Source: Candidatus Moanabacter tarae (GTDB lineage Bacteria > Verrucomicrobiota > Verrucomicrobiia > Opitutales > UBA2987). Taken from it: a DNA stretch of 64,000 bases. The translations under genes were made by a program, and so were the position numbers. The notes beneath the pieces were generated by a model that was not told the DNA's origin, ran no database searches, and was given only the letters and a program-made list of their open reading frames with translations. Of this stretch, positions 47,981 to 64,000 are shown piece after piece. The stretch covers positions 2,485,001-2,549,000 of the forward strand of contig CP029803.1 in NCBI GenBank assembly GCA_003226295.1, given 5' to 3'. Position 1 is the stretch's first letter, and each line of letters opens with the position of its first letter.

Positions 47981-50900
47981 ATGATTAGAAAATTCACCAA
48001 TCCGTCTCCCTTGTACAGTTGGGAATACGAACACGATTCTTGCGGGGTGGGGTTTATCGCGAACATTAGGGGTGAGCGGTCTCATACCATTATCGACCGG
48101 GCAGTAGTTGGGTTAAAGAATCTGGCTCACCGGGGTGCGATTGATGCGGATGCGGTGACCGGGGACGGTTCTGGAATACTGACTCAGATTCCTTATGAGC
48201 TCTTTCGCGAGTTTCTGAAATCAAAAGGCAAGCAACTCTTCAGAGAATCAGATTTAGCGATCTGTGTTGTCTTCTTGCCTCGGGATGATGAGTACGCTGA
48301 GGCGCATGGTAGGAAGATTATAAGGGATGCGATTGACGGAGAGGATCTCGCTTTTCTGGCATGGAGGGAAGTTCCTGTAAATCCAACTTGCTTGGGGAAG
48401 ACGGCAGAGATGAGTCGGCCTCTGATTCTTCAAGCGCTCGTAGGCCGCAAGGAGAAGGAGGAAAAAGAGGAAAGTCTGACTGAAACGGAAGAAGCAGAGG
48501 CCTTTGAGAGGAGCTGTTTCTTGGCCATGAAAATGGCTGAGAAGAGGGCGGCCGAAGAGAATTTCGAAGATTTCTACATTGTCAGTTTCTCCAGTCGGAC
48601 GATCACATACAAGGGACTGTTGAGCGCCCCCCAAATACATCGGTTCTTCCTTGACCTAAGATCTCCCCTCTACACTTGCGCCTTTGCTATCTTTCACCAA
48701 CGGTTCGCTACTAATACGATACCTGATTGGACACGGGCTCAACCCTATCGAATGTTGGCTCATAATGGAGAGATCAACACCATTCGCGGGAACCGAAATT
48801 TGATGCGTGCACGTGGCTTTGCCTCCTCCGTTGGGATTTGGGATGATCGGTTTGCCGACCTGCACCCGATAATCCAGCCGGAGATGAGTGATTCGGCAAG
48901 TTTTGACAATGCCCTTCAGCTGATCGCTCTTTCCGGTCGGTCTAGTGTCGAAAGTATATCCATGATGATGCCAGCATCATGGGAGAAAGATAAGGGTTTG
49001 GCGCAAAAAGTTAGGGATTTCTATCATTTCCACTCCACTATGATCGAACCGTGGGACGGACCCTGTGCTATTGTATTCACCGATGGGCGCTTTGTGGGTG
49101 CATCCCTCGATCGCAGCGGATTACGGCCCCTCCGCTATAAGGTCTTCGATGATGGGACTATTGTTATGGCTTCAGAAGCCGGGATAATTCCCGACTGGGG
49201 AGCCAAGGTAGTGACTAATGGCCGACTGGGCCCAAGTAGGATGGTGACGGTAGACCTTAAGGAAAAAAAGCTACTTGAAGATGGCGATCGTCAATCTTAC
49301 CTAGCGAACCTGGCCGATTTTGGCAAATGGTGCAAGAATTCGCTCCATAACCTACACGATCTCTCAAAAGCCCATGCCGAATACGAGGAGATCTCGCTAG
49401 AGCCCGAGACTTTGGAGGAGCTTCAGATAGTATTCGGGTACCACTTGGATGAACGCGAATTGGTCCTGATGCCCATGGCCGAGACTGGGATGGAGCCCCT
49501 CGGCTCAATGGGTGACGATACCCCTCTTGCAGTCCTCTCTCGACGACCACGGCTCATCTATTCCTATTTCAAACAGCTATTTGCTCAGGTAACGAATCCG
49601 GCAATCGATTCCACCAGGGAGCACCTGATGATGTCGTTGAATATGTATTTAGGCGGCCGCTTGGAATTGTTTGAGGTCAAAGAACTCCCGCACGACCGTG
49701 AGTTTCTGGAGTTAGATACCCCAATACTCATGGATCATGAGTATTGGGGTATCTACTCCACAAACTTCCTTCGTGGACGTATTCTAAAGTTGGACGCCGT
49801 CTTCGAAGCCAGCGAAGGAAAGGGCTCTCTTGAAACTGAGATCCAGGTTCTTAGAAAGAGGGCACGAACGGCTGTAGCAATGGAAGGAGTGCGTGTTATT
49901 GTCGTTTCCGATCGTAAGGTGAACGAAAACAAGGCACCGATCCCAATGTTGTTGGCAGTTGGGGCCGTTCATCAAGAATTGGTTCGAACTGGACAGCGGC
50001 TAAAAGCCGATATTGTTGCTGAGACGGGAGAGGTGCGGGATGTTCATCAGGTTGCCTGCCTTGTAGGATTTGGGGCCAATGCTGTTCATCCTTATCTGGC
50101 GCTAGATGTAGTCCGGACTCTGATTTCCCGCCAAGAGACTGGGGGAGTCAAAATTGAAGAGGGGTTGGGAAACTATCGTAACGCCCTTAACAAAGGTCTT
50201 CTCAAGATCATGTCCAAAATGGGGATCGGAACTCTTTTTAGCTATCAGGGGGCGCAAATTTTCGAGGCAATTGGTTTGGACAAGAAGTTGGTCGAGGACT
50301 GTTTTTATGGGACCCCATCTCCAATAGGAGGGATTTCCTATGAAGAGATTGCCGAGGAGGTCCTGGTTAGGCATGGGAATGCATACGCCAGAGGAATAGA
50401 GCCAGTAGCTGTCGAATCGGACGGTTATTTCAAAGCAAAGCGCAACGGAGGTGAATTCCACAACTTGAATCCGAAGGTTGTTTCGGGGATGAATAAATTC
50501 CTCCGGAAGAGCGGCTTTGAAGGTTTTGAAATCTTCAAAACAGCGAGCGATGAGCATGTTCCTGTGGCTCCAAGAGATCTACTGAAGTTAAGATTCCCTA
50601 ACGAGGAGATCTTGTTGGGTAATGTGGAGTCAGTTGAGGAAATTCGTCGACGTTTTACTACAGCTGGCATGTCTTTAGGAGCCCTTTCTCCGGAGGCACA
50701 TGAATGTCTTGCTATAGCGATGAACAGTATCGGGGGAAAGTCGAATTGCGGAGAAGGTGGCGAAGATCCAAAGCGGTTTTCCCCTTTGGAGACTGGCGAG
50801 AATGCGAATAGCGCAATTAAACAGGTGGCTAGCGGGCGGTTTGGAGTCACGGCAGAGTACCTAGCGAATGCCAAGGAAATAGAAATCAAAATTGCCCAAG

Positions 50901-52561
50901 GTGCAAAACCTGGAGAAGGAGGTCAGATTCCGGGTCACAAAGTCTCTGAAGTAATAGCACGCCTCCGTTATAGCGTTCCAGGGGTTCCCCTTATTTCTCC
51001 CCCACCGCATCACGACATCTATTCAATCGAGGATCTTGCCCAGCTAATTTTTGATCTCAAGGAAGTTAACCCGCGGGCAAAGGTGTGTGTTAAGTTGGTT
51101 TCTAGTTCCGGGGTTGGCACGATAGCGGTAGGGGTAACGAAAGCATACGCTGACATTATTCTTGTTTCAGGACATGAAGGAGGGACTGGCGCTTCGCCTT
51201 TATCATCAATTAAAAACGCTGGATCAGCTTGGGAGATTGGGATTTCGGAGGTCCACCAGATTCTCATGATGAATGGCCTTCGTAATCGAGTGATTCTGAG
51301 GACCGATGGAGGGATGCGGACGGGGCGTGATATTGTAATCGCGGCGATACTTGGAGCTGAGGAATACAATTTCGGAACCGCGGCCTTGATTGCTGCTGGT
51401 TGCGCTATGTTTCGCGTCTGTCACCTCAATACTTGTCCTGTGGGAGTGGCCACCCAGGAGGAAAAGCTTAGGGAGAAATTTCGGGGAAAAGCTGAAAATG
51501 TTGTTAGGTTTTTTAATGCGGTGGCGGAAGATGTTCGCCGATATCTGGCAAAATTGGGGTATTCGAGGCTTGAGGATATTATTGGGAGAACTGATCTCGT
51601 TGAGCAGGTTGAAGATCCTGAGAATCCAAAAACTAAGAAAATTGATCTTTCACCAATACTGTTCAACCCGGATTTATCAGGGGATTTTCCGAGGGTTAAT
51701 ACGCGCAGTCGTAATGACAGCCCAGGCCATGAGGGGTCCCTCGATCATCAGCTCTTACAGGATGCAAGGAGTGCTATCCTACAGAAAAGTAGCCGTTATG
51801 TCGGCACTTACACGATTAACAACACACACCGTGACGTTGGTACGCGCTTATCAGGGGAAATTGCCTACATGTATGGTAACCGAGGATTAAAGCCGGGATC
51901 GCTAGATCTTACTTTTCGAGGAAGCGCAGGACAAAGTTTTGGTGCTTTTCTTGTTCCCGGCGTTCACTTGCGGTTGATGGGTGAGGCTAATGACTACGTA
52001 GGCAAGGGTATGCATGGTGGCCAAATTGTAGTTCGGCCAAGCGAGGAGGAGACATTCACGTGGCACGAGAACTTCATTTTGGGGAACACCTGTATCTACG
52101 GAGCGACGGGCGGGTTTCTTTTTGCTGCTGGGAGCACGGGTCAACGATTCGCAGTCCGAAACTCCGGAGCTACTGCGGTTGTCGAAGGTGTCGGCGATCA
52201 CGGGTGCGAGTACATGACTCGGGGTACAGTTGTGGTGTTGGGCCCGACGGGGAGGAACTTCGGTGCTGGAATGAGCGGTGGGCTGGCTTTTGTCTACGAT
52301 TCCGATCTAACTTTTAAGGACCGAGTCAATCTGGAAATGGTGAGGATTGAAGGAATGCAGTTCGATGAGGAGGCCGAGGAATTGCGCAAACTCATTGATC
52401 TCTATGCTAATTTGACGGGAAGTCCCTATGCTCGTAAGGTTCTTAAAGATTGGGAAGGGGCCATCCTAAGGTTTCGAAAAGTGATACCGAATGCTCTTTC
52501 AACAGACACCGTTTACCCTCAGTACCAATTCGATATTCACGCACAAGCTTTAGCTGTATAG
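47981..52561 (+). CDS. gltB: Glutamate synthase large subunit
   Basis: A 1526-residue GOGAT alpha chain, converting 2-oxoglutarate plus glutamine to two glutamates. An N-terminal class-II amidotransferase domain follows a short propeptide-like 20 residues, with Cys21 in EHDSCGVGF. The central FMN-binding barrel and the cluster Cys residues in VCHLNTCPVG are present. The C-terminal beta-helix domain contains repeated G-G-x-I/V segments (GGQIVVRP, GATGGFLFAAG, GMSGGLAFV). No gltD small subunit flanks it in this window; either it lies elsewhere or the electron donor is ferredoxin. Its neighbour downstream is an NtrC-type activator. The ATG at 47981 is well placed. Confidence 0.95.
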   Translation: MIRKFTNPSPLYSWEYEHDSCGVGFIANIRGERSHTIIDRAVVGLKNLAHRGAIDADAVTGDGSGILTQIPYELFREFLKSKGKQLFRESDLAICVVFLPRDDEYAEAHGRKIIRDAIDGEDLAFLAWREVPVNPTCLGKTAEMSRPLILQALVGRKEKEEKEESLTETEEAEAFERSCFLAMKMAEKRAAEENFEDFYIVSFSSRTITYKGLLSAPQIHRFFLDLRSPLYTCAFAIFHQRFATNTIPDWTRAQPYRMLAHNGEINTIRGNRNLMRARGFASSVGIWDDRFADLHPIIQPEMSDSASFDNALQLIALSGRSSVESISMMMPASWEKDKGLAQKVRDFYHFHSTMIEPWDGPCAIVFTDGRFVGASLDRSGLRPLRYKVFDDGTIVMASEAGIIPDWGAKVVTNGRLGPSRMVTVDLKEKKLLEDGDRQSYLANLADFGKWCKNSLHNLHDLSKAHAEYEEISLEPETLEELQIVFGYHLDERELVLMPMAETGMEPLGSMGDDTPLAVLSRRPRLIYSYFKQLFAQVTNPAIDSTREHLMMSLNMYLGGRLELFEVKELPHDREFLELDTPILMDHEYWGIYSTNFLRGRILKLDAVFEASEGKGSLETEIQVLRKRARTAVAMEGVRVIVVSDRKVNENKAPIPMLLAVGAVHQELVRTGQRLKADIVAETGEVRDVHQVACLVGFGANAVHPYLALDVVRTLISRQETGGVKIEEGLGNYRNALNKGLLKIMSKMGIGTLFSYQGAQIFEAIGLDKKLVEDCFYGTPSPIGGISYEEIAEEVLVRHGNAYARGIEPVAVESDGYFKAKRNGGEFHNLNPKVVSGMNKFLRKSGFEGFEIFKTASDEHVPVAPRDLLKLRFPNEEILLGNVESVEEIRRRFTTAGMSLGALSPEAHECLAIAMNSIGGKSNCGEGGEDPKRFSPLETGENANSAIKQVASGRFGVTAEYLANAKEIEIKIAQGAKPGEGGQIPGHKVSEVIARLRYSVPGVPLISPPPHHDIYSIEDLAQLIFDLKEVNPRAKVCVKLVSSSGVGTIAVGVTKAYADIILVSGHEGGTGASPLSSIKNAGSAWEIGISEVHQILMMNGLRNRVILRTDGGMRTGRDIVIAAILGAEEYNFGTAALIAAGCAMFRVCHLNTCPVGVATQEEKLREKFRGKAENVVRFFNAVAEDVRRYLAKLGYSRLEDIIGRTDLVEQVEDPENPKTKKIDLSPILFNPDLSGDFPRVNTRSRNDSPGHEGSLDHQLLQDARSAILQKSSRYVGTYTINNTHRDVGTRLSGEIAYMYGNRGLKPGSLDLTFRGSAGQSFGAFLVPGVHLRLMGEANDYVGKGMHGGQIVVRPSEEETFTWHENFILGNTCIYGATGGFLFAAGSTGQRFAVRNSGATAVVEGVGDHGCEYMTRGTVVVLGPTGRNFGAGMSGGLAFVYDSDLTFKDRVNLEMVRIEGMQFDEEAEELRKLIDLYANLTGSPYARKVLKDWEGAILRFRKVIPNALSTDTVYPQYQFDIHAQALAV

Positions 52562-52688: not shown

Positions 52689-54275
52689 ATGAAGGAGGAG
52701 AATAGAGAGACTCGCGTCCTTATAATCGATGACGATGCCGAGATTAGGTACTCGATTAATCGGGTGCTTTCCAGAGGCGGATACTCGGTTTCGCTGGCAG
52801 GTAGTGGAGATGAAGGTCTGAAGAAGGCCGAAAACGAAAATCCCGATGTTGTCTTTCTTGATAATCGAATGGAAGGAATGTCGGGAATTGAAACCCTTCA
52901 GCGCCTTCTCGATTTGAATCCTAACTTTGTTGTTTTGATCATGACCGCTTACGGCACCCCCCAGACTTCAATCGAAGCAATGAAATTCGGGGCCTACGAT
53001 TACCTTCTGAAACCCTTTGATTCGGAAAAGTTGCTGGGACTTACGGCACGGGCTTATCAAGCCCGTTGCAATCTTGAAAAATCAGCTGGCGAGCAGTACT
53101 CACTGATCGATTCGGATGACTACAAGGACAGTATAGTAGGAAACTCAGATGCGATGCAGGCCGTCTATAAGACGATTGGGCAGGTTGCAGCGAGTGATGT
53201 TACTGTCCTAATATCCGGAGAAAGTGGGACTGGGAAGGAACTTGTGGCGAAGTGTATTTGTAACCATAGTCTCCGTGGGGAAAAGTCCTATGTAGCAGTC
53301 AATTGTGCTGCTTTGCCGGACAATCTCATTGAGAGCGAGCTTTTTGGGCATGAAAGAGGATCCTTCACTGGTGCTACGGCGCAAAAAATCGGGAAATTCG
53401 AACTTTGCGATGGCGGAACAATCTTTCTTGATGAAGTTGGCGATATGTCGCCCCTAACTCAAACGAAGCTCTTACGTGTTCTTCAGGAGGGAGAGTTTCA
53501 GAGAGTTGGAGGCAACGAGACAATAAGGGTAGATGTAAGAGTAATCGCAGCTACGAACCGGGATCTCGAAGAGATGGTTGTTCATAGTAAGTTTCGGGAG
53601 GATCTTTACTATCGTCTTAACGTTGTTCGCATTCGCTTGCCAGCCTTGCGAGCAAGAACTGAGGATATTCCTGCTCTTATCGATTTTATCCTACGCAGGG
53701 TTTCTAATAAAGGTCAGACAAGAGTGAGGGCCTTCTCGGAGGAATCGCTATCAATGATGATGAAGTATGACTGGCCGGGAAACGTTAGGGAATTAGAGAA
53801 CGTCGTGCAGCACTGCACCGTCATTGCACAAGGAGAGATTATCCTCCCTGATGACTTGCCGGATCAGATTCTTCCTGACGGGGCAAGTAAAAATTCGGAG
53901 ATTAGCGGCCAGGGTTCTGAATCAGGACCGCCCTTGGATAGAGAGCAGCATGGAGTATTATCAGCTGGGTCGGAGTTAGACAATGCGAGCTCCTTGCTGT
54001 CAGAGATGGTAGAAATTGATCGTAACTCTTCTCGATCAATGTTCGAGAGTGTAGAAGAAATCAGTTTAGATTCGGAGTCAGACGCTGCTTATGATCGGGT
54101 ATTTGCTGAACTTCGCCGTCAATCGGACCAATCTATTCTACGTACTCTTGAGATCGAAATGATCCATCGGGCACTCAAAGAAACTGGTGGGAATCACGTA
54201 AAAGCATCAGCTCTTCTCGGCATAACACGGGCTACTTTGAGAAAGAGGATAGAACAATACTCCATCCGTTACTAG
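52689..54275 (+). CDS. NtrC-family sigma-54-dependent response regulator
   Basis: A 528-residue activator. The receiver domain (about 8-120) has Asp14-16, phospho-acceptor Asp58, Thr86 and Lys108. The AAA+ domain (about 148-385) has Walker A GESGTGKE (177-184), the sigma-54-contacting loop GSFTGA (224-229, Ser in place of the usual Ala) and Walker [11 protein letters not shown] long, acidic, serine-rich linker (about 395-470) joins it to a C-terminal Fis-type helix-turn-helix ([19 protein letters not shown]). It is probably phosphorylated by the soluble GAF kinase at 57156-58859 and likely drives the sigma-54 promoter of glnA. Its place beside gltB supports nitrogen control; another stress signal remains possible. 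Confidence 0.9.
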
Positions 54276-55566: not shown

Positions 55567-57159
55567 ATGAAAGTACTAGTTGCAGATGCGATCTCGGAGA
55601 GTGGACTGAAATATCTCGAGAGCGAACCTGATATTGAGGTGCTCAATGCAACTTCTGTCCAGAAAAGTGAGCTCCTGAAGTTGGCAATTGATGTCGACGC
55701 CATAATTGTAAGAAGTGAGACCGTCGTATCGGCTGATCTTTTAGAGGTTGCTTCCGAGCTAAAGGTTATTGGGCGTGCTGGCGTTGGTTTAGACAACATC
55801 GATCTCGAAGAAGCGACCCAGCAGGGTGTTGTCGTTATGAATACCCCAGAGGGTAATACTGTCGCAACCGCGGAGTTGACAATGACTCATCTTCTCTGTT
55901 CAGCGCGGCCTATAGCGCAAGCATATATGACACTCAACGCAGGCGAGTGGGAACGGAAAAGTTTCTCCGGCTCCGAACTTCGCGGAAAGACCCTCGGTAT
56001 AATCGGAATGGGGCGAATTGGAGGTGAAGTGGCAAAGAGGGCAAAGGGATTCGATATGCAGATTATCGGATACGATCCCCATGTAACAGAGGATCGTATC
56101 AATTCCCTTGAGGTAGATAGGGTTGAGCTCAAGGAGCTTTTCCGGCTAGCAGATTTTATAACCGTGCACATTCCACTCACCGATTCTAGTCGACACCTAA
56201 TCGATGCAAGAGCTCTTGCGCAGATGAAGGATGGGGTTCGAATCATTAACTGTGCTCGCGGGGGAATTGTTAAAGAGGTGGATTTGGTTAAAGCACTGCG
56301 TTCAGGGAAAGTCGCTGCTGCTGGAATGGATGTTTTTGAAAAGGAACCATTGCCGAAAGACAGCGAACTGCGTGATTGTCCGAATCTGGTTATTTCCCCG
56401 CATTTGGGTGCCTCCACGGAGGAGGCGCAGGAGAGCGTGGGGCTTGAAATCTCGAAGGCTGTAACAGAGATGCTCAAGGGAGGAATTATTCGGAATGCGG
56501 TAAATATGCCCGTTATGGACAGGCGCACGTTCATGATAATCAAGCCTTATTTGGATCTTGGTTCAAGATTAGGCACCGTTTTGCAACAGATTGTACCTGA
56601 AAGAGTCGAAAGGCTGAAGATCGTCTATTCTGGCAGGCTAAGCGATTTGAATCTTGTTCCTCTCACGCGGAGCATTCAGTGTGGATTCCTGCGTCGGATT
56701 AGCGGGAGAAAGATTAATGAGGTAAACGCACCGAGCTACATGAGACGGCTGGGAATCACGGTCGACTTCGTTGTATCTAGCTCGGGGACAGACTACACTG
56801 AATTAGTCAGGCTTGAGGCACGCGATGTACTGCAGAACCTTCACTCGGTCGAAGGCACTTTAATGGGGACAAATCAGAATCCGCGTATTGTTCAGGTCAA
56901 TGGTCGTTCCATTGAAGTACCTCTGGAGGGGAATCTTCTCTTTCTCGAGAATAAAGACCGGCCTGGTATGATCGGTTACATAGGCACATTGCTTGGTGAG
57001 AGCTGGATCAACATTGGTGACATGTCGCTTAGTCGGAATTCAATAGGGGGTCTTGCTCTAACGGCTCTTGTTCTCGACAGTGTACCTCCCGGCGACGTCC
57101 TGGGTGTGATCGAGGGGCACGATGCCATTCGAAAGCTGAACTTTGTCGAAGTGGATTAG
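55567..57159 (+). CDS. serA: D-3-phosphoglycerate dehydrogenase
   Basis: A 530-residue enzyme for the first step of serine synthesis. The cofactor loop is GIIGMGRIGGEVA, and catalytic residues lie in NCARGGIVKE (Arg), FEKEPL (Glu) and SPHLGASTEEAQ (His). An intervening domain (about 315-445) and a C-terminal ACT domain (about 455-530, LFLENKDRPGMIGYIG) match the long form that can be feedback-inhibited by serine. The ATG at 55567 is two codons inside a TTG-started frame. Its stop codon overlaps the stop of the convergent kinase gene by 2 bp. Confidence 0.95.
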   Translation: MKVLVADAISESGLKYLESEPDIEVLNATSVQKSELLKLAIDVDAIIVRSETVVSADLLEVASELKVIGRAGVGLDNIDLEEATQQGVVVMNTPEGNTVATAELTMTHLLCSARPIAQAYMTLNAGEWERKSFSGSELRGKTLGIIGMGRIGGEVAKRAKGFDMQIIGYDPHVTEDRINSLEVDRVELKELFRLADFITVHIPLTDSSRHLIDARALAQMKDGVRIINCARGGIVKEVDLVKALRSGKVAAAGMDVFEKEPLPKDSELRDCPNLVISPHLGASTEEAQESVGLEISKAVTEMLKGGIIRNAVNMPVMDRRTFMIIKPYLDLGSRLGTVLQQIVPERVERLKIVYSGRLSDLNLVPLTRSIQCGFLRRISGRKINEVNAPSYMRRLGITVDFVVSSSGTDYTELVRLEARDVLQNLHSVEGTLMGTNQNPRIVQVNGRSIEVPLEGNLLFLENKDRPGMIGYIGTLLGESWINIGDMSLSRNSIGGLALTALVLDSVPPGDVLGVIEGHDAIRKLNFVEVD

Positions 57160-58859
57160 GTTCCTACCGGCAGCCAAATCTTGAAGGTTGTTCCGGAGCT
57201 TGAAGAGGAGACAATCTCGATGTCTCCCTGATGACTAGTCATAATTCTCTTCACAATGTTGAGTCCTAGCCCTTCTCGCTCGGTTTTTTCTAGAAGGGTT
57301 GATTCGAAAATCTTTTTCTGTGATGCTTCCGGAATCCCCGGTCCGGTATCCGAAATCTCTGTTACTGCAATCGCGTTTTCCCCTGAGTGATCGAGGTAGG
57401 ATCGAATGGCAATGTCACCCCCTTGTGGCATTGCTTGGACCGCATTGAGTAGAAGATTGAGTAAGACCTGTTCGAGCTGTCCTCGCTTTACGCGGACATT
57501 GATTGGTTGATCTCCTCCAGAAGAAGAAATTCTCACTTTAGACTGCTCGAATTTTAGTCTCATCAAAAGGAGCGATTCTTGAATTAGGTTGTGAATCTCA
57601 AGTTCGATCCAATCGTTCTCCTTGGATCGGCTGAAATCAAGCACACGAGTGACAATTGATTCCAATTGATCGAGTTTATCCTTGATGATATTGAAGTCGG
57701 TATGACGGGGATCGTAAGTTTCGAAATTCAGGTCCAGCGATTCTAGAAGGAGCTTTAGTACCGTGAGAGGGTTGCGAATTTCGTGGGCAATTTCTGCTGA
57801 TAGGAATCCGAGTGTGGTTAGTTTTTCGCTCCGTCTCAGCTTTTCCTCGCTCTCAAGAGTGCGAAAATAAAGTCGTGCGTTATGGATCGCTGCTGCTCCT
57901 AAACTGGCTAGCGTGGCTAAGGTGGTTCGGACCTCGTTGTCGAATCGATTTGGACGATCGGTATAAACGTTAAGGACCCCGATCGGCGTATCTTCGTAAA
58001 GGATCGGTGAAGCAAGCATAGATATAAGGCCCTCCTTCTGAATAAGCTCTGTAAAGTGATGTTCTTCCGTCTTCCTTAGATCCAAAACTTCCACCTGTCT
58101 TTTGCGAAGGATAACTGTTCCAATTGCTGAATCTGAGAGCTTGAGAGTTTCCTGGTAGTCGCGGTTTCCGGAGATATCGGTGAGGGCCTCTAATTGAAGC
58201 AACTCCTCTTCACTCTCGTACAGATAAAGGGCACAGAGACAGCAGTCGGTGATCATGAGCGCATTTCGTGTCAAACTCTGTAGAAGCTCTTGGAGGTCGA
58301 TTTCCAGAACCAGACTCTGCCCCATCCTGATTAATGCTTCCATTTGTAAAGCCCTTCTTCGCAGCTGTTGAATAAGCCAAAGTCTCCCGATTACCTTCGA
58401 GGCTTCATTTGAGAGAAGGGCTAATACTTTCAAGTCGCTTTCGTTAAATGCCTCGATCTCTTCACTTTCGACATTGAGAACCCCTATCGTTGCCCCTCGC
58501 TCCTCTATCAGGACAGCCATTTCGGAACGAGTTCTCGCATTAAGCGGATGATAGCGAGGGTCCTTTCTTACGTCAGGGACCAAAAGAGGCTTGCCGTGAT
58601 GTGCTACCCATCCGGCAATTCCCTGCCCAATTTCGAGCTCAATCTTCCCATCGGGTTTGGGGTTTCCCGATGAGACCTCAATTCTCAGATTTTTTGATTC
58701 GGGTATCCTTAAGGCTATACTAGCCCGATTAGCGTCTAAGACATCAATTACTGTAGCAAGGATCAGTTCCAGTGCCTCGTCTGAGTTCTCAGTTTTGTTT
58801 ACGAGACTACTGATCCGGTATAGGGCATCGACTATTTTGGGTCCACTCTCAGTTTTCAC
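57156..58859 (-). CDS. Soluble GAF-domain sensor histidine kinase (NtrB-like)
   Basis: A 567-residue kinase without transmembrane segments. Two GAF domains (about 20-160 and 180-330, with ESGxGxA-like sensing folds such as GQGIAGWVA and SPILYEDTPIGVLNVY) precede a dimerisation helix with phospho-acceptor His359 (AEIAHEIRNPL) and an HATPase domain with NLLLNAVQAM, DTGPGIP and GLGLNIVKRI. It senses a cytoplasmic ligand or redox/nitrogen signal and should donate phosphate to a response regulator, most likely the NtrC-type protein at 52689. It is divergent from glnA. Confidence 0.88.
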   Translation of the reverse strand: MKTESGPKIVDALYRISSLVNKTENSDEALELILATVIDVLDANRASIALRIPESKNLRIEVSSGNPKPDGKIELEIGQGIAGWVAHHGKPLLVPDVRKDPRYHPLNARTRSEMAVLIEERGATIGVLNVESEEIEAFNESDLKVLALLSNEASKVIGRLWLIQQLRRRALQMEALIRMGQSLVLEIDLQELLQSLTRNALMITDCCLCALYLYESEEELLQLEALTDISGNRDYQETLKLSDSAIGTVILRKRQVEVLDLRKTEEHHFTELIQKEGLISMLASPILYEDTPIGVLNVYTDRPNRFDNEVRTTLATLASLGAAAIHNARLYFRTLESEEKLRRSEKLTTLGFLSAEIAHEIRNPLTVLKLLLESLDLNFETYDPRHTDFNIIKDKLDQLESIVTRVLDFSRSKENDWIELEIHNLIQESLLLMRLKFEQSKVRISSSGGDQPINVRVKRGQLEQVLLNLLLNAVQAMPQGGDIAIRSYLDHSGENAIAVTEISDTGPGIPEASQKKIFESTLLEKTEREGLGLNIVKRIMTSHQGDIEIVSSSSSGTTFKIWLPVGT

Positions 58860-58963: not shown

Positions 58964-58995
58964 TTTAGTCATATTCTCTTTGAAAAATGACTAAA
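58964..58995. promoter_or_regulatory. Candidate activator (enhancer) site upstream of glnA
   Basis: TTTAGTCAT (58964-58972) and ATGACTAAA (58987-58995) are perfect 9-bp inverted repeats with a 14-bp spacer. The centre is about 136 bp before the start point predicted from the sigma-54 promoter, a distance typical of NtrC-type enhancer sites. It could also control the divergent kinase gene. Confidence 0.6.
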
Positions 58996-59089
58996 ATCGA
59001 CCAATGGTTTCTTCTCCTTTTAACGAATCCGGTTGTTTTTGACCATTATTCTGCCCAGATTTTCAAAAAGGGTGTGCTTGCCGTTCGAC

Positions 59090-59105
59090 TGGCATTTTTT
59101 TTGCT
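59090..59105 (+). promoter_or_regulatory. Sigma-54 promoter of glnA
   Basis: TGGCA, a T run, then TTGCT: GG at 59091-59092 and GC at 59103-59104 are exactly 10 bp apart, matching the TGGCAC-N5-TTGC consensus at both boxes. The start point would be near 59116, about 65 bp before the glnA ATG. Confidence 0.8.
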
Positions 59106-59180: not shown

Positions 59181-60590
59181 ATGAATCCATCTGAAGTAAT
59201 TGCGTTTGCGAAAGAAAAAGACGTCAAGTTTGTCGATCTGAAGTTCTGTGATATCCACGCTACCTGGCAGCACTTTACTGTGCCGGTAAGTGAGTTAACA
59301 GATGATGCGTTCAACGACGGGTTTGGGTTTGACGGGTCGTCCATTCGGGGATGGCAAGGAATTGAAGCCTCAGATATGCTCGTAATACCTGATCCTGGTA
59401 CCGCAATTATTGATCCCTTCGTCAAGGCAACTACCCTCAGCTTAGTCTGCGATATCGAAGATCCTCTAACCAGAGAACCTTATGGGCGATCGCCGCGAGG
59501 TGTGGCCAAAAAGGCCGAGGAATATCTACAGTCTACCGGCCTTGGTGACACTGCATATTTCGGTCCGGAAGCTGAGTTTTTTATTTTCGACGATGTTCGG
59601 TTCGATTCATCTGCCAACGAGGCTTTTTACTCTGTTGATTCATCGGAAGGAGTTTGGAATACTGGCAGGGACGAAATGCCAAACCTTGGACATAAGATTC
59701 GGCATAAAGAAGGATATTTGCCAGTTGCTCCTAAGGATCAGCTCATGGACCTTCGCAACGATATGGTGCTAACCATGATCGATCTTGGTATCGAGGTCGA
59801 GGCTCAGCATCATGAGGTTTCTACTGGAGGTCAGGCAGAAATAGATCTCCGGTTTGGGCCACTTCACTCAATGGGAGACAGCCTTTGTCTCTATAAGTAT
59901 GTTGTAAAGAATGTGGCAAGAAGGTATGAAAAAACAGCAACGTTCATGCCTAAACCGATATTTGGAGATAATGGATCCGGAATGCATGTACACTCGTCCA
60001 TTTGGAAAGGAGGAGAACCGACATTTGCGGGAGACTGCTATGCAGGTCTCAGCCAGGAGGCTATCTATTATATCGGAGGTCTTTTGAAGCATGCCGCGGC
60101 ACTGTGTGCCATATGTAACCCAACTAACAACAGCTACAAACGCTTGGTCCCCGGATTTGAAGCGCCTGTAAACCTCGCCTATTCTGCTCGGAATCGGTCC
60201 GCAATTTGCCGAATTCCGACCTATAGCAATAGTCCTAAAGCAAAACGAGTCGAATTTCGGGTTCCTGATCCTTCTTGCAATCCCTACCTCGCTTTTTCTG
60301 CCATATTAATGGCGGGTCTAGATGGTATTGAAAATCGAATCGATCCTGGCGATGCGGTTGATAAGAATCTTTATGACCTGTCGCCGGAAGATGCGGACCA
60401 GATTAAACAAGTCCCAGACTCGCTAAAGGGATCTCTTGATGCTTTGGCAGACGATCATAAATTTCTGGTCAAAGGAGGTGTTTTCACCGAGGATTTCATC
60501 CAGAATTTCATCGAATTGAAGAATGAAGAGTACGACGATGTGAGGATTCGTACCCATCCCCACGAGTATTTTCTCTACTATGATATATAA
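59181..60590 (+). CDS. glnA: Glutamine synthetase, type I
   Basis: A 469-residue GSI that makes glutamine from glutamate, ammonia and [39 protein letters not shown] and the NRSA-type loop ([13 protein letters not shown]) are present. Tyr398 in NLYDLSPED is the adenylylation site, so control by a GlnE-type enzyme is likely. Length and motifs fit the GSI-beta form. It is preceded by a sigma-54 promoter and an upstream inverted repeat, and followed by a good terminator. Confidence 0.96.
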
Positions 60591-61138: not shown

Positions 61139-61202
61139 CACATGGGTATGTGGAACGATTCAAATCTGTGAGTGGTTGAGCCGGGGAGTAAGGGAATGGG
61201 TC

Positions 61203-61955
61203 ATGGAGATTGTAGGTAATGAGGCAATGGCCTCTCTATCAGGAAAGCGGGTAGAGGAGAAGGTACTGGAATTGCGGCGGATGGTGGAGGAGCGGTATCC
61301 GACAGTCTACAGAAAGCGGATCCGTAATCTAGAGGTGGAAGTATCTGGAATTAGCGGGATCCTAGGAGGAAATTTGCCGCGCTGTGCATTAAGTGAGATC
61401 GTGACCGAGATGCCCAGCGTGGGAGGCCAACTAGTTCTGCTGACACTCTTGCAAGGGGCGGAGAAAAAACGAGTGTATTCAGTATTGGTAGACGGGAGTG
61501 ACAACTTTGATCCGGAGACGGCAGGGGAAAAGTTGATTCGGCCATTGCTTTGGGTACGGTGCGGCGGGGTAGATGAGGCGATGCAGGCGGTTGATATCCT
61601 AGCTCGAGATAGCAATTTCCCGCTCGTAATCCTGGACTTGAGGTGGAATGCGCTGTGGAGGTTACATCGGATTGCTGACAATTTTTGGTATCGGTTGCAG
61701 CGGGTAGTGGAGCGGTCGGGTACGACTCTTGTGGTGTTTACTCCCCGGCCAATGGTGGTCAGTGCTGAGGTGCGCTTAAAGCTTAGGAAGGGATTCCGGA
61801 TTGAAAGCTGTGAAGTAGTCCGCAACACCCTTGTCCCGCTGCTGGAAGGTGAAATCCTACGCTATCGGGGAAGGGCCGGGAGCGAGAGTTTTATTTTCTC
61901 TTCGGAAGGCAGGCCTGAAAAAGAGAAAATTGATGAGGTGTTTGTGGCGGGATGA
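61203..61955 (+). CDS. imuA: ImuA-like RecA-fold protein of the mutagenesis cassette
   Basis: A 250-residue protein with a RecA-like core: LSEIVTEMPSVGGQLVLLTLLQ, a strand LVILDLRWNALW and a later VVFTPRPMV. The Walker A loop is degenerate (TEMPSVGG), as common in ImuA/SulA-like proteins, so ATP use is doubtful. It is thought to link ImuB to RecA and to stimulate DnaE2-dependent translesion synthesis. A TTG at 61176 would add 9 residues; the ATG at 61203 is preferred. Its stop overlaps the imuB start (ATGA), so the two are translated together. Confidence 0.82.
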   Translation: MEIVGNEAMASLSGKRVEEKVLELRRMVEERYPTVYRKRIRNLEVEVSGISGILGGNLPRCALSEIVTEMPSVGGQLVLLTLLQGAEKKRVYSVLVDGSDNFDPETAGEKLIRPLLWVRCGGVDEAMQAVDILARDSNFPLVILDLRWNALWRLHRIADNFWYRLQRVVERSGTTLVVFTPRPMVVSAEVRLKLRKGFRIESCEVVRNTLVPLLEGEILRYRGRAGSESFIFSSEGRPEKEKIDEVFVAG

Positions 61956-63415
61956 AATACGGTGTTTTATACATGCCGAGATTTGCCCTTCAGGCGGTTT
62001 TACGAATAGAGTCTTTCTCCAGCGAGACTGTAGTTATTATAGTGGCCGCAGCTTCCCGAAATACGGTTGTGCTAGAAATGACGGAATCAGCGCGCAGGGT
62101 TGGAATTATGGAGGGTATGCCAATTGCCCAGGCGGTAGCTCGGAGCCCTGAAGTGATTGTTCGATGCCGTTCCAAAGACGCGGAGAGATCGGCAGCAAAA
62201 GCCATTTTTACTTATGCCTATACTCTATCTCCTCGGGTTGAAGAAACAGGTAAGGGTATCTGTACAGTTGATCTGAGGGGGGCTTCAGAAGAGTCACTAC
62301 TATCACGCGGGGAGGATCTTCTGAGACAGATCGAAGAGGTTGGGTTTAGGGTACAAATTGGATTTTCGGAAACACCTAGGCTAGCTTATTTTGCAGCTTA
62401 TCATGCCCGGCCCATTTTGGTGGTTGCCGAGCGAGATCGGAAGGGGTTTCTGAACCAGTTGTCGCTGAGGACAGCAGGAATTTCCGAGAGAATGGCAATG
62501 ATTCTGCAACAGTGGGGTATTCGTACCCTGGGGGCCTACAGTGTTTTGCCGCGTGAGGATGTCGGGCACCGCCTGGGAAAAGAGGGTTTAACTCTCTGGG
62601 ATGAACTAGCCGGGAGGGAGGAACGGTCTCTGGTCATATCAACGTTGCCAGAGGTATTTGAGGAATCTCTCGAATTGGAGTATGAGATCGAGACGATGGA
62701 GCCGCTCCTCTTTATTCTGCGTCGGTTTCTGGAGTCGTTAACCCTTCGTCTGAAGCTGGTTTACATGGTTGTCGGGCTCTTGCGCCTGACTCTCACCTTA
62801 TCAAATGGGTCTGTTTATCGTCGGCTTTTCAAGATTTTGGAACCAACACGCAAGGTGGAAACGCTCTTCAGGATGCTCTTTTCTCATCTGGAAAATGTTG
62901 GGACGGAATCTCCGATAACTGCTGTATCGATTAAGATAAATCCAGTCTCGCCGCAACTACGCCAGCGTGATCTGTTCGAGACTGCTCTAAAGAATCCACA
63001 GGGATTTTCCGCGACGCTAGCAAAACTGGTTGGGGTGGTTGGTACGGGGCGGGTGGGTACGCCACGGCTCAGTAATACCTACCGGTCCGATTCTTTTTGT
63101 TTGGAGCCCATGCCGGCTGTTCTAAAAGAGGTTGAGGATAATTCTCCCAAAGCAGTTTACGGTTTACCTTTGCGTCGTTTGCGTCCTTCGGTCCCAGCCC
63201 ATGTAAAACTGGAAAATGGGAAACCAAGATTCATATCCAGCCAATTTGTTCGAGGATGCATTACAAAAGAGTTTGGACCGTGGCAGAGTTCGGGTGGTTG
63301 GTGGGAAAAGGAAGGCTGGGCGTGTGAGGAGTGGGATGTAGAATTGGAAAAAGGAGGGCTCTATCAGCTGAGGCGAGAGGATGGGAAATGGTTTGTGGAA
63401 GGAATGTATGATTAG
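61952..63415 (+). CDS. imuB: ImuB, inactive Y-family polymerase-like hub protein
   Basis: A 487-residue DinB/UmuC-fold protein. The N-terminus reads YGVLYMPRFALQAVLR where active Y-family polymerases have an F-x-D-x-D-x-F-F motif, so the catalytic acids are missing, as expected for ImuB. A little-finger-like region follows (about 230-350), and the C-terminal region (about 400-487) is the part that recruits DnaE2 and ImuA in studied systems. It overlaps imuA by 4 bp and is followed by dnaE2 after 161 bp. Confidence 0.88.
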   Translation: MKYGVLYMPRFALQAVLRIESFSSETVVIIVAAASRNTVVLEMTESARRVGIMEGMPIAQAVARSPEVIVRCRSKDAERSAAKAIFTYAYTLSPRVEETGKGICTVDLRGASEESLLSRGEDLLRQIEEVGFRVQIGFSETPRLAYFAAYHARPILVVAERDRKGFLNQLSLRTAGISERMAMILQQWGIRTLGAYSVLPREDVGHRLGKEGLTLWDELAGREERSLVISTLPEVFEESLELEYEIETMEPLLFILRRFLESLTLRLKLVYMVVGLLRLTLTLSNGSVYRRLFKILEPTRKVETLFRMLFSHLENVGTESPITAVSIKINPVSPQLRQRDLFETALKNPQGFSATLAKLVGVVGTGRVGTPRLSNTYRSDSFCLEPMPAVLKEVEDNSPKAVYGLPLRRLRPSVPAHVKLENGKPRFISSQFVRGCITKEFGPWQSSGGWWEKEGWACEEWDVELEKGGLYQLRREDGKWFVEGMYD

Positions 63416-63576
63416 TCTGCGAACTTTTTGAACAGCAAAGTCGTAATCGTTCGACACAGCTCGAGACAGATATTTGTTCTGCCAGATTTGAGAAGAAGCT
63501 GATAAGGGGCAGGGGATCAGGAGTTTGCGATAAATGGGCAAGATTGCAAAGGCTAAGGAATAATTAATAATCTGGA

Positions 63577-64000
63577 ATGTCTGCTTATATCGAACTTCAT
63601 GCGCGGAGCGCTTACAGTTTCCTTCGAGGGGCGTCGCGCCCCGAACATCTGGTGGAGGCTTGTGCGGCAGCGGACCTTCCGGCGATGGCATTGTGTGACC
63701 GGGACGGAATTTATGGGGCACCACGGTTTTACGGAGCGGCTCGGGAACATGACATTCGGCCAATTGTAGGGAGCGAATTGACGATGGAGGACGAGAGCGT
63801 TTTACCGGTTTTGGTTGAGAACCGCACCGGGTATCGGAATCTCTGCCGACTTTTGACACGTGCCCAGCTTCGCTCTGCTAAAGGTAAATCCCGTGTGCGT
63901 TGGGCTGATGTGAAATTTTTTTCTGAGGGACTGATTGCCCTAACTGGAGATGAAGAGGGTCCGGTCCATCGAGCGTGGCTGAGGGAGGGTTCTCAAGGTG
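63577..64000 (+). CDS. dnaE2: Error-prone DNA polymerase III alpha subunit DnaE2 (5' part)
   Basis: The frame opens at ATG 63577 and continues to the window edge with 141 codons and no stop. YIELHARSAYSFLRGASRPE, LVEAC...ALCDRDGIYGAPRFY and IVGSEL match the PHP domain at the start of DnaE polymerases, with the SAYSFL...GAS layout of the DnaE2 branch. This is the translesion polymerase of the imuAB-dnaE2 cassette. It needs the next window to be complete. Confidence 0.92.
   Translation, partial: MSAYIELHARSAYSFLRGASRPEHLVEACAAADLPAMALCDRDGIYGAPRFYGAAREHDIRPIVGSELTMEDESVLPVLVENRTGYRNLCRLLTRAQLRSAKGKSRVRWADVKFFSEGLIALTGDEEGPVHRAWLREGSQG

Follow-up and report, generated by a model that had tools for sequence, protein, structure and literature searches.

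The NtrC box of the proteobacterial Ntr system is TGCACCAnnnTGGTGCA, an operator of 17 bp (PMC8743547), and the NifA operator, TGT-N10-ACA, is the nearest published form to the operator that we describe here (PMC2820453). A survey of sigma-54 regulons covering Opitutia records, in the portions of it drawn on here, some enrichment of nitrogen-fixation genes in Opitutia and places the control of glutamine synthetase and ammonia permease chiefly in Pseudomonadota (PMC12316311). Those portions name neither an operator nor a regulator for Opitutia; candidates for both are put forward in this study. Our literature searches surfaced no description of a TGKTCA-N4-TGAMCA operator, which is not proof of absence.

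The window, by which we mean the whole 64-kb stretch of DNA that was analysed, is part of a single-contig 2.63-Mb genome that named relatives of its glnA assign to the order Opitutales (Verrucomicrobiota), and genome-wide statements made below rest on pattern searches and family searches. Upstream of glnA lies a gap of 321 bp that is common to glnA and a divergent GAF-GAF-HisKA-HATPase kinase gene, and the features of this region are as follows.

47981-52561, plus strand: gltB, large-subunit glutamate synthase gene and 5' neighbour of the regulator gene, from a reading of the ORF and its translation.
52689-54275, plus strand: NtrC-like sigma-54 activator gene, 3' of gltB; receiver, AAA+ with GSFTGA and Fis-type HTH (Pfam).
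57156-58859, minus strand: soluble GAF-GAF-HisKA-HATPase histidine kinase gene (Pfam), likely partner of the 52689 regulator.
58964-58995, no strand assigned: inverted repeat TTTAGTCAT-N14-ATGACTAAA with perfect 9-bp arms, probably coincidental as a whole.
58988-59003, plus strand: distal predicted enhancer dyad TGACTAAAATCGACCA, the best in the gap at 11.6 bits, 86 bp before the -24 box and centred at about -121.
59030-59045, plus strand: proximal predicted enhancer dyad CGGTTGTTTTTGACCA, the second-best in the gap at 10.0 bits, 44 bp before the -24 box and centred at about -79.
59090-59105, plus strand: sigma-54 promoter TGGCATTTTTTTTGCT, with the -24 GG at 59091-59092, the -12 GC at 59103-59104 and a predicted start at about 59116.
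59181-60590, plus strand: glnA, type I glutamine synthetase (TIGR00653, 664 bits, above cut-off; Pfam).

Elsewhere in the genome a single PII gene and a single Amt gene lie in tandem. Within the gltB coding sequence (49713-49755) lies an inverted repeat with perfect 20-bp arms around a loop of 3 bases, much longer than chance predicts. On the 3' side of glnA, at 61176-63999, there follow a small gene without Pfam matches, a Y-polymerase-like gene of the impB/mucB/samB family and the beginning of a gene resembling DNA polymerase III alpha / DnaE2, a probable ImuA-ImuB-DnaE2 mutagenesis cassette.

A sequence-only reading of this DNA had proposed a GG-N10-GC promoter at 59090-59105 and had named a missing rpoN gene as one sign that would speak against it. 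The promoter is present and rpoN is encoded in the genome (PF04552 at C1:1578319, E 2e-59). TGGCATTTTTTTTGCT scores 15.6 bits, lies 91 bp ahead of the glnA start at 59181 and fits the TGGCAY-N6-TTGCW consensus. As the sigma-54 pattern is expected by chance about once per 64 kb, support for the site comes from its position and from its recurrence before glnA in relatives, clear -24/-12 sites being found ahead of glnA in eight loci (the window genome, G001, G002, G009, G016, G026, G041 and an Opitutaceae MAG). No sigma-54 site was found ahead of glnA in G010, G011 and G025, where kinase and activator are both missing. The same negative result in G020, G022, G038 and G040, which do have the two genes, counts against the account preferred below. 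For amtB, sigma-54 sites were found in 16 genomes, the window genome and 15 others. Judged from sequence, glnA of this genome has a genuine sigma-54 promoter with a predicted transcription start. A strict search for TGGCAY-N6-TGCW returned 16 sites against 11 for the reversed pattern and most of these strict sites are therefore due to chance; none of the other 14 has a convincing dyad at an enhancer position.

Palindromic motif discovery with no positional input across 24 glnA and amtB sigma-54 promoters returned a 16-bp dyad, TGKTCA-N4-TGAMCA, which converged as TGtTcA-ATAT-TgAaCA with a log-likelihood of 83.6 against 35.1 +/- 2.9 in 30 shuffled sets, the training promoters coming from one order only, with G001-G003 representing one genus and some promoters picked by a sigma-54 score that was also used later. 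Often the dyad ends 21-22 bp ahead of the -24 box. Using the form TGK-N10-MCA, eight sites lie 20-22 bp before the -24 box (amtB of this genome, G001 and G003; glnA of G001, G002, G016, G026 and G041), while no 3-bp window held more than three across 1000 shuffles. Dyads away from the 21-22 bp position tend to sit at whole helical turns, out to about 149 bp (Rayleigh p 0.005 at 10.5 bp, n=10, a small sample assembled post hoc). No further enhancer motif common to the promoters emerged. The palindrome TTGCAC-C-GTGCAA occurs only at G026 among the glnA upstream regions compared and, upstream of amtB in three genomes of one genus (G004, G029 and G046), another repeat, TTCATT-N5-AATGAA or close variants of it, lies directly before the -24 box.

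The dyads in the glnA gap were scored with a hold-out model from whose training the window promoter had been left out, and the second-best score of 10.0 bits was reached in 0.17% of shuffles of the upstream sequence. The distal and proximal dyads are 42 bp, or four turns, apart, and both (11.6 and 10.0 bits) lie off the usual 21-22 bp position and score below most other dyads of the set, among them the amtB dyad of this genome, a perfect palindrome with the core TGGTCA-TTTT-TGACCA that scores 18.4 bits and lies 21 bp before the -24 box. The perfect form TGGTCA-N4-TGACCA has one further site in the genome, which is within coding sequence and hence attributed to chance. Just upstream of C1:301119-301134, the amtB-glnK promoter is preceded by a palindrome with perfect arms of 14 bp, GGACCCAATGGTCA-TTTT-TGACCATTGGGTCC, which exceeds the shared dyad in length. 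Comparison of these promoters points to a likely glnA enhancer in the form of the 16-bp palindrome common to other nitrogen genes across the order.

In 52 Opitutales genomes a composite search for a dyad followed after 20-23 bp by TGGCA-N7-TGCT gave 14 matches compared with 5 for the reversed pattern, and 11 of the 14 precede nitrogen genes, namely glnA, amtB, a second glutamine synthetase that is GlnII-like by sequence, urease and CbiM-type uptake; the remaining three, with scores no higher than 1.1 bits, are inside coding sequence. Pairing by PWM, under score thresholds and with gaps from 10 to 100 bp allowed, found 20 pairs in a selected set of loci and 0 in their reversed sequence, a count that is no blind test of gene specificity because the loci were chosen for glnA, amtB, activator or kinase genes. 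At one locus (L236, in G020) a urease operon (ureA) and a gene for CbiM-type metal uptake have divergent sigma-54 promoters, and a single dyad lies midway between these, at 22 bp from either one. Judged by the promoters and dyads ahead of glnA, amtB, glnII-type and urease genes, the activator may control nitrogen assimilation.

Only two convincing sigma-54 activators are encoded in the genome, the 52689 regulator and one elsewhere behind its own histidine kinase gene, a third match being weak (31 bits, part of the domain). The 52689 regulator has the make-up of a sigma-54 activator of the NtrC family, with a receiver, an AAA+ domain with a GAFTGA-type loop (GSFTGA) and a Fis-type HTH, and falls below the NtrC equivalog (NR-I) cut-offs (TIGR01818, 487 of 558.6; PRK10923, 395 of 620). 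The palindromic motif recovered de novo (TGtTcA-N4-TgAaCA) is not of the TGCACC-type, 17-bp form that would mark NR-I before glnA. The kinase falls below the NtrB (NR-II) cut-off at 79.8 of 240 bits and has two GAF domains and no PAS match in Pfam. Kinase and activator occur together in 34 of the 52 genomes, are both absent from 17 and are discordant in one that is 50% complete (34/0/1/17; Fisher p 8e-13, phylogeny ignored); the two are probably partners, with predicted phosphotransfer. Their genes are not adjacent in the relatives examined, where kinase orthologues have other neighbourhoods.

Best-dyad strength tracks the similarity of the activator HTH to its consensus (Spearman 0.76, p 0.0003, n=18 genomes, phylogeny ignored). 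No recognisable dyad was found in G015 and G036, which have degenerate HTHs and are also the two most GC-rich; as it is upstream regions rich in GC that give the lowest scores, composition may contribute to the trend (GC against dyad score, Spearman -0.43, p 0.08). The neighbours of the activator gene, gltB here, M50 peptidase-glnE-glnA in G041 and carAB with amtB-glnK in G001, agree with the HTH trend in pointing to the activator as the dyad binder. At four loci in relatives (L231, L232, L233 and L234) the activator gene adjoins a divergent gene with a similar start, which in L231 encodes an M50 (site-2-protease-like) peptidase.

The same reading had singled out a perfect 9-bp inverted repeat about 136 bp upstream of the predicted start, in the gap shared with a histidine kinase gene. 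Its description was accurate, the repeat lying at 58964-58995 with its centre at 58979.5, about 136 bp before about 59116, and the kinase gene being divergent at 57156-58859 (minus strand). Were TTTAGTCAT-N14-ATGACTAAA itself the operator of the 52689 regulator, its perfection and its typical enhancer distance (about -136) would fit. However, perfect inverted repeats no shorter than 9 bp and with spacers no longer than 24 bp arise in 4.5% of dinucleotide shuffles of the gap and 12 of them are present in the window, so the repeat alone is weak evidence; a chance value of zero for its exact sequence was set aside because it tests one sequence and not any repeat of equal quality. The proposed genome search for further copies near other promoters went against the idea, as the repeat has no second copy in the 2.63 Mb and is absent from the amtB-glnK promoter of this genome. 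It is absent too from all relatives with a sigma-54 glnA promoter, including those whose activator DNA-binding helix is nearly identical, and since most of the order has kept this helix well the operator should be conserved too. Its arms are moreover 23 bp apart, as against the one-turn half-site spacing of NtrC and NifA boxes. Being unconserved, single in the genome, missing at amtB and within reach of chance at 4.5%, the repeat was rejected as the activator operator, a role that we regard as highly improbable. What survives of the proposal that it is the operator of a distinct NtrC-like family is that the operator is probably unlike the enterobacterial NtrC box, the conserved element being the 16-bp dyad. 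A role for the repeat in the divergent kinase gene, either as an operator or as an AU-rich hairpin in the 5' leader, agrees with its location, which on the opposite strand is 105-136 bp upstream of the kinase start, but is quite improbable given the appreciable chance rate of such repeats and the lack of any conserved counterpart ahead of the glnA genes examined, the kinase orthologues lying in other neighbourhoods. Only the right arm overlaps a dyad (58988-59003) and the repeat is probably mostly incidental, a coincidence as a whole.

A different objection accepts the dyad as real and assigns it to another nitrogen or global regulator, with the activator binding elsewhere. The known sites of CRP/NtcA-like proteins, for example, are of comparable length and have TGT...ACA at their ends, so that the ends and the 16-bp length of the dyad would suit such a protein, and a position near -55 is unusually close for an enhancer. 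We consider this unlikely, as dyad strength follows the activator HTH, one dyad serves two divergent sigma-54 promoters in G020, dyads off the usual position stay in helical phase with the promoter to about 149 bp (Rayleigh p 0.005) and the promoters showed no further enhancer motif in common.

Our preferred reading thus remains that the dyads are bound by the 52689 activator. Under nitrogen shortage the GAF-domain histidine kinase (57156-58859) would phosphorylate this NtrC-like activator, which would bind the TGKTCA-N4-TGAMCA dyads at 58988-59003 and 59030-59045 on one helix face and remodel the closed complex, allowing sigma-54 RNA polymerase to transcribe glnA from 59090-59105. The same activator may drive amtB-glnK here, and in relatives it may act on glnA and amtB as well as on a synthetase of glnII type and on urease/CbiM-type uptake. 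What computation establishes is the promoter, the dyad motif, the specificity of this motif for certain genes and the way it covaries with the activator DNA-binding helix. We give the account as a whole, in which the inverted repeat is incidental, a probability of about 0.7. More tentatively, and with somewhat less than even confidence, Opitutales may run a separate Ntr-type system made up of an unlinked GAF-GAF kinase and an NtrC-like activator with its own TGKTCA-N4-TGAMCA operator, typically 21-22 bp before the -24 box or roughly whole turns further out; if so, with this placement activation would often require little looping of the DNA. These results offer a testable operator, a regulator and a probable kinase for nitrogen control in a phylum that has received little study, as well as natural promoters in which to ask how near a sigma-54 enhancer may lie and which face of the helix it may occupy. 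They also illustrate how a repeat that is perfect yet due to chance can draw attention away from a weaker element brought out by conservation.

Among known systems, several reconstructed activator motifs of Desulfovibrio vulgaris resemble the dyad in having TGT and ACA half-sites, 9, 11 or 12 bp apart (PMC4641369), whereas the spacing here is 10 and both the phylum and the regulator are different. The NifA operator shares with it the length of 16 bp, the TGT/ACA ends and a place ahead of sigma-54 promoters (PMC2820453), but NifA sites are usually found 100 bp or more upstream and serve to control nif genes, while here a receiver-domain activator with assimilation targets is predicted and the sites cluster about 55 bp upstream. 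With proteobacterial Ntr (NtrB-NtrC, glnAp2) the locus has in common a sigma-54 glnA promoter, paired upstream dyads, an NtrC-family activator and glnA and amtB-glnK as targets, with urease in a relative. It differs in its operator, which is the 16-bp TGKTCA-N4-TGAMCA and not the 17-bp NtrC box TGCACCAnnnTGGTGCA (PMC8743547), in a kinase with two GAF domains and no Pfam PAS match, in kinase and activator genes that are unlinked in relatives and in an activator that falls under the NtrC equivalog cut-off.
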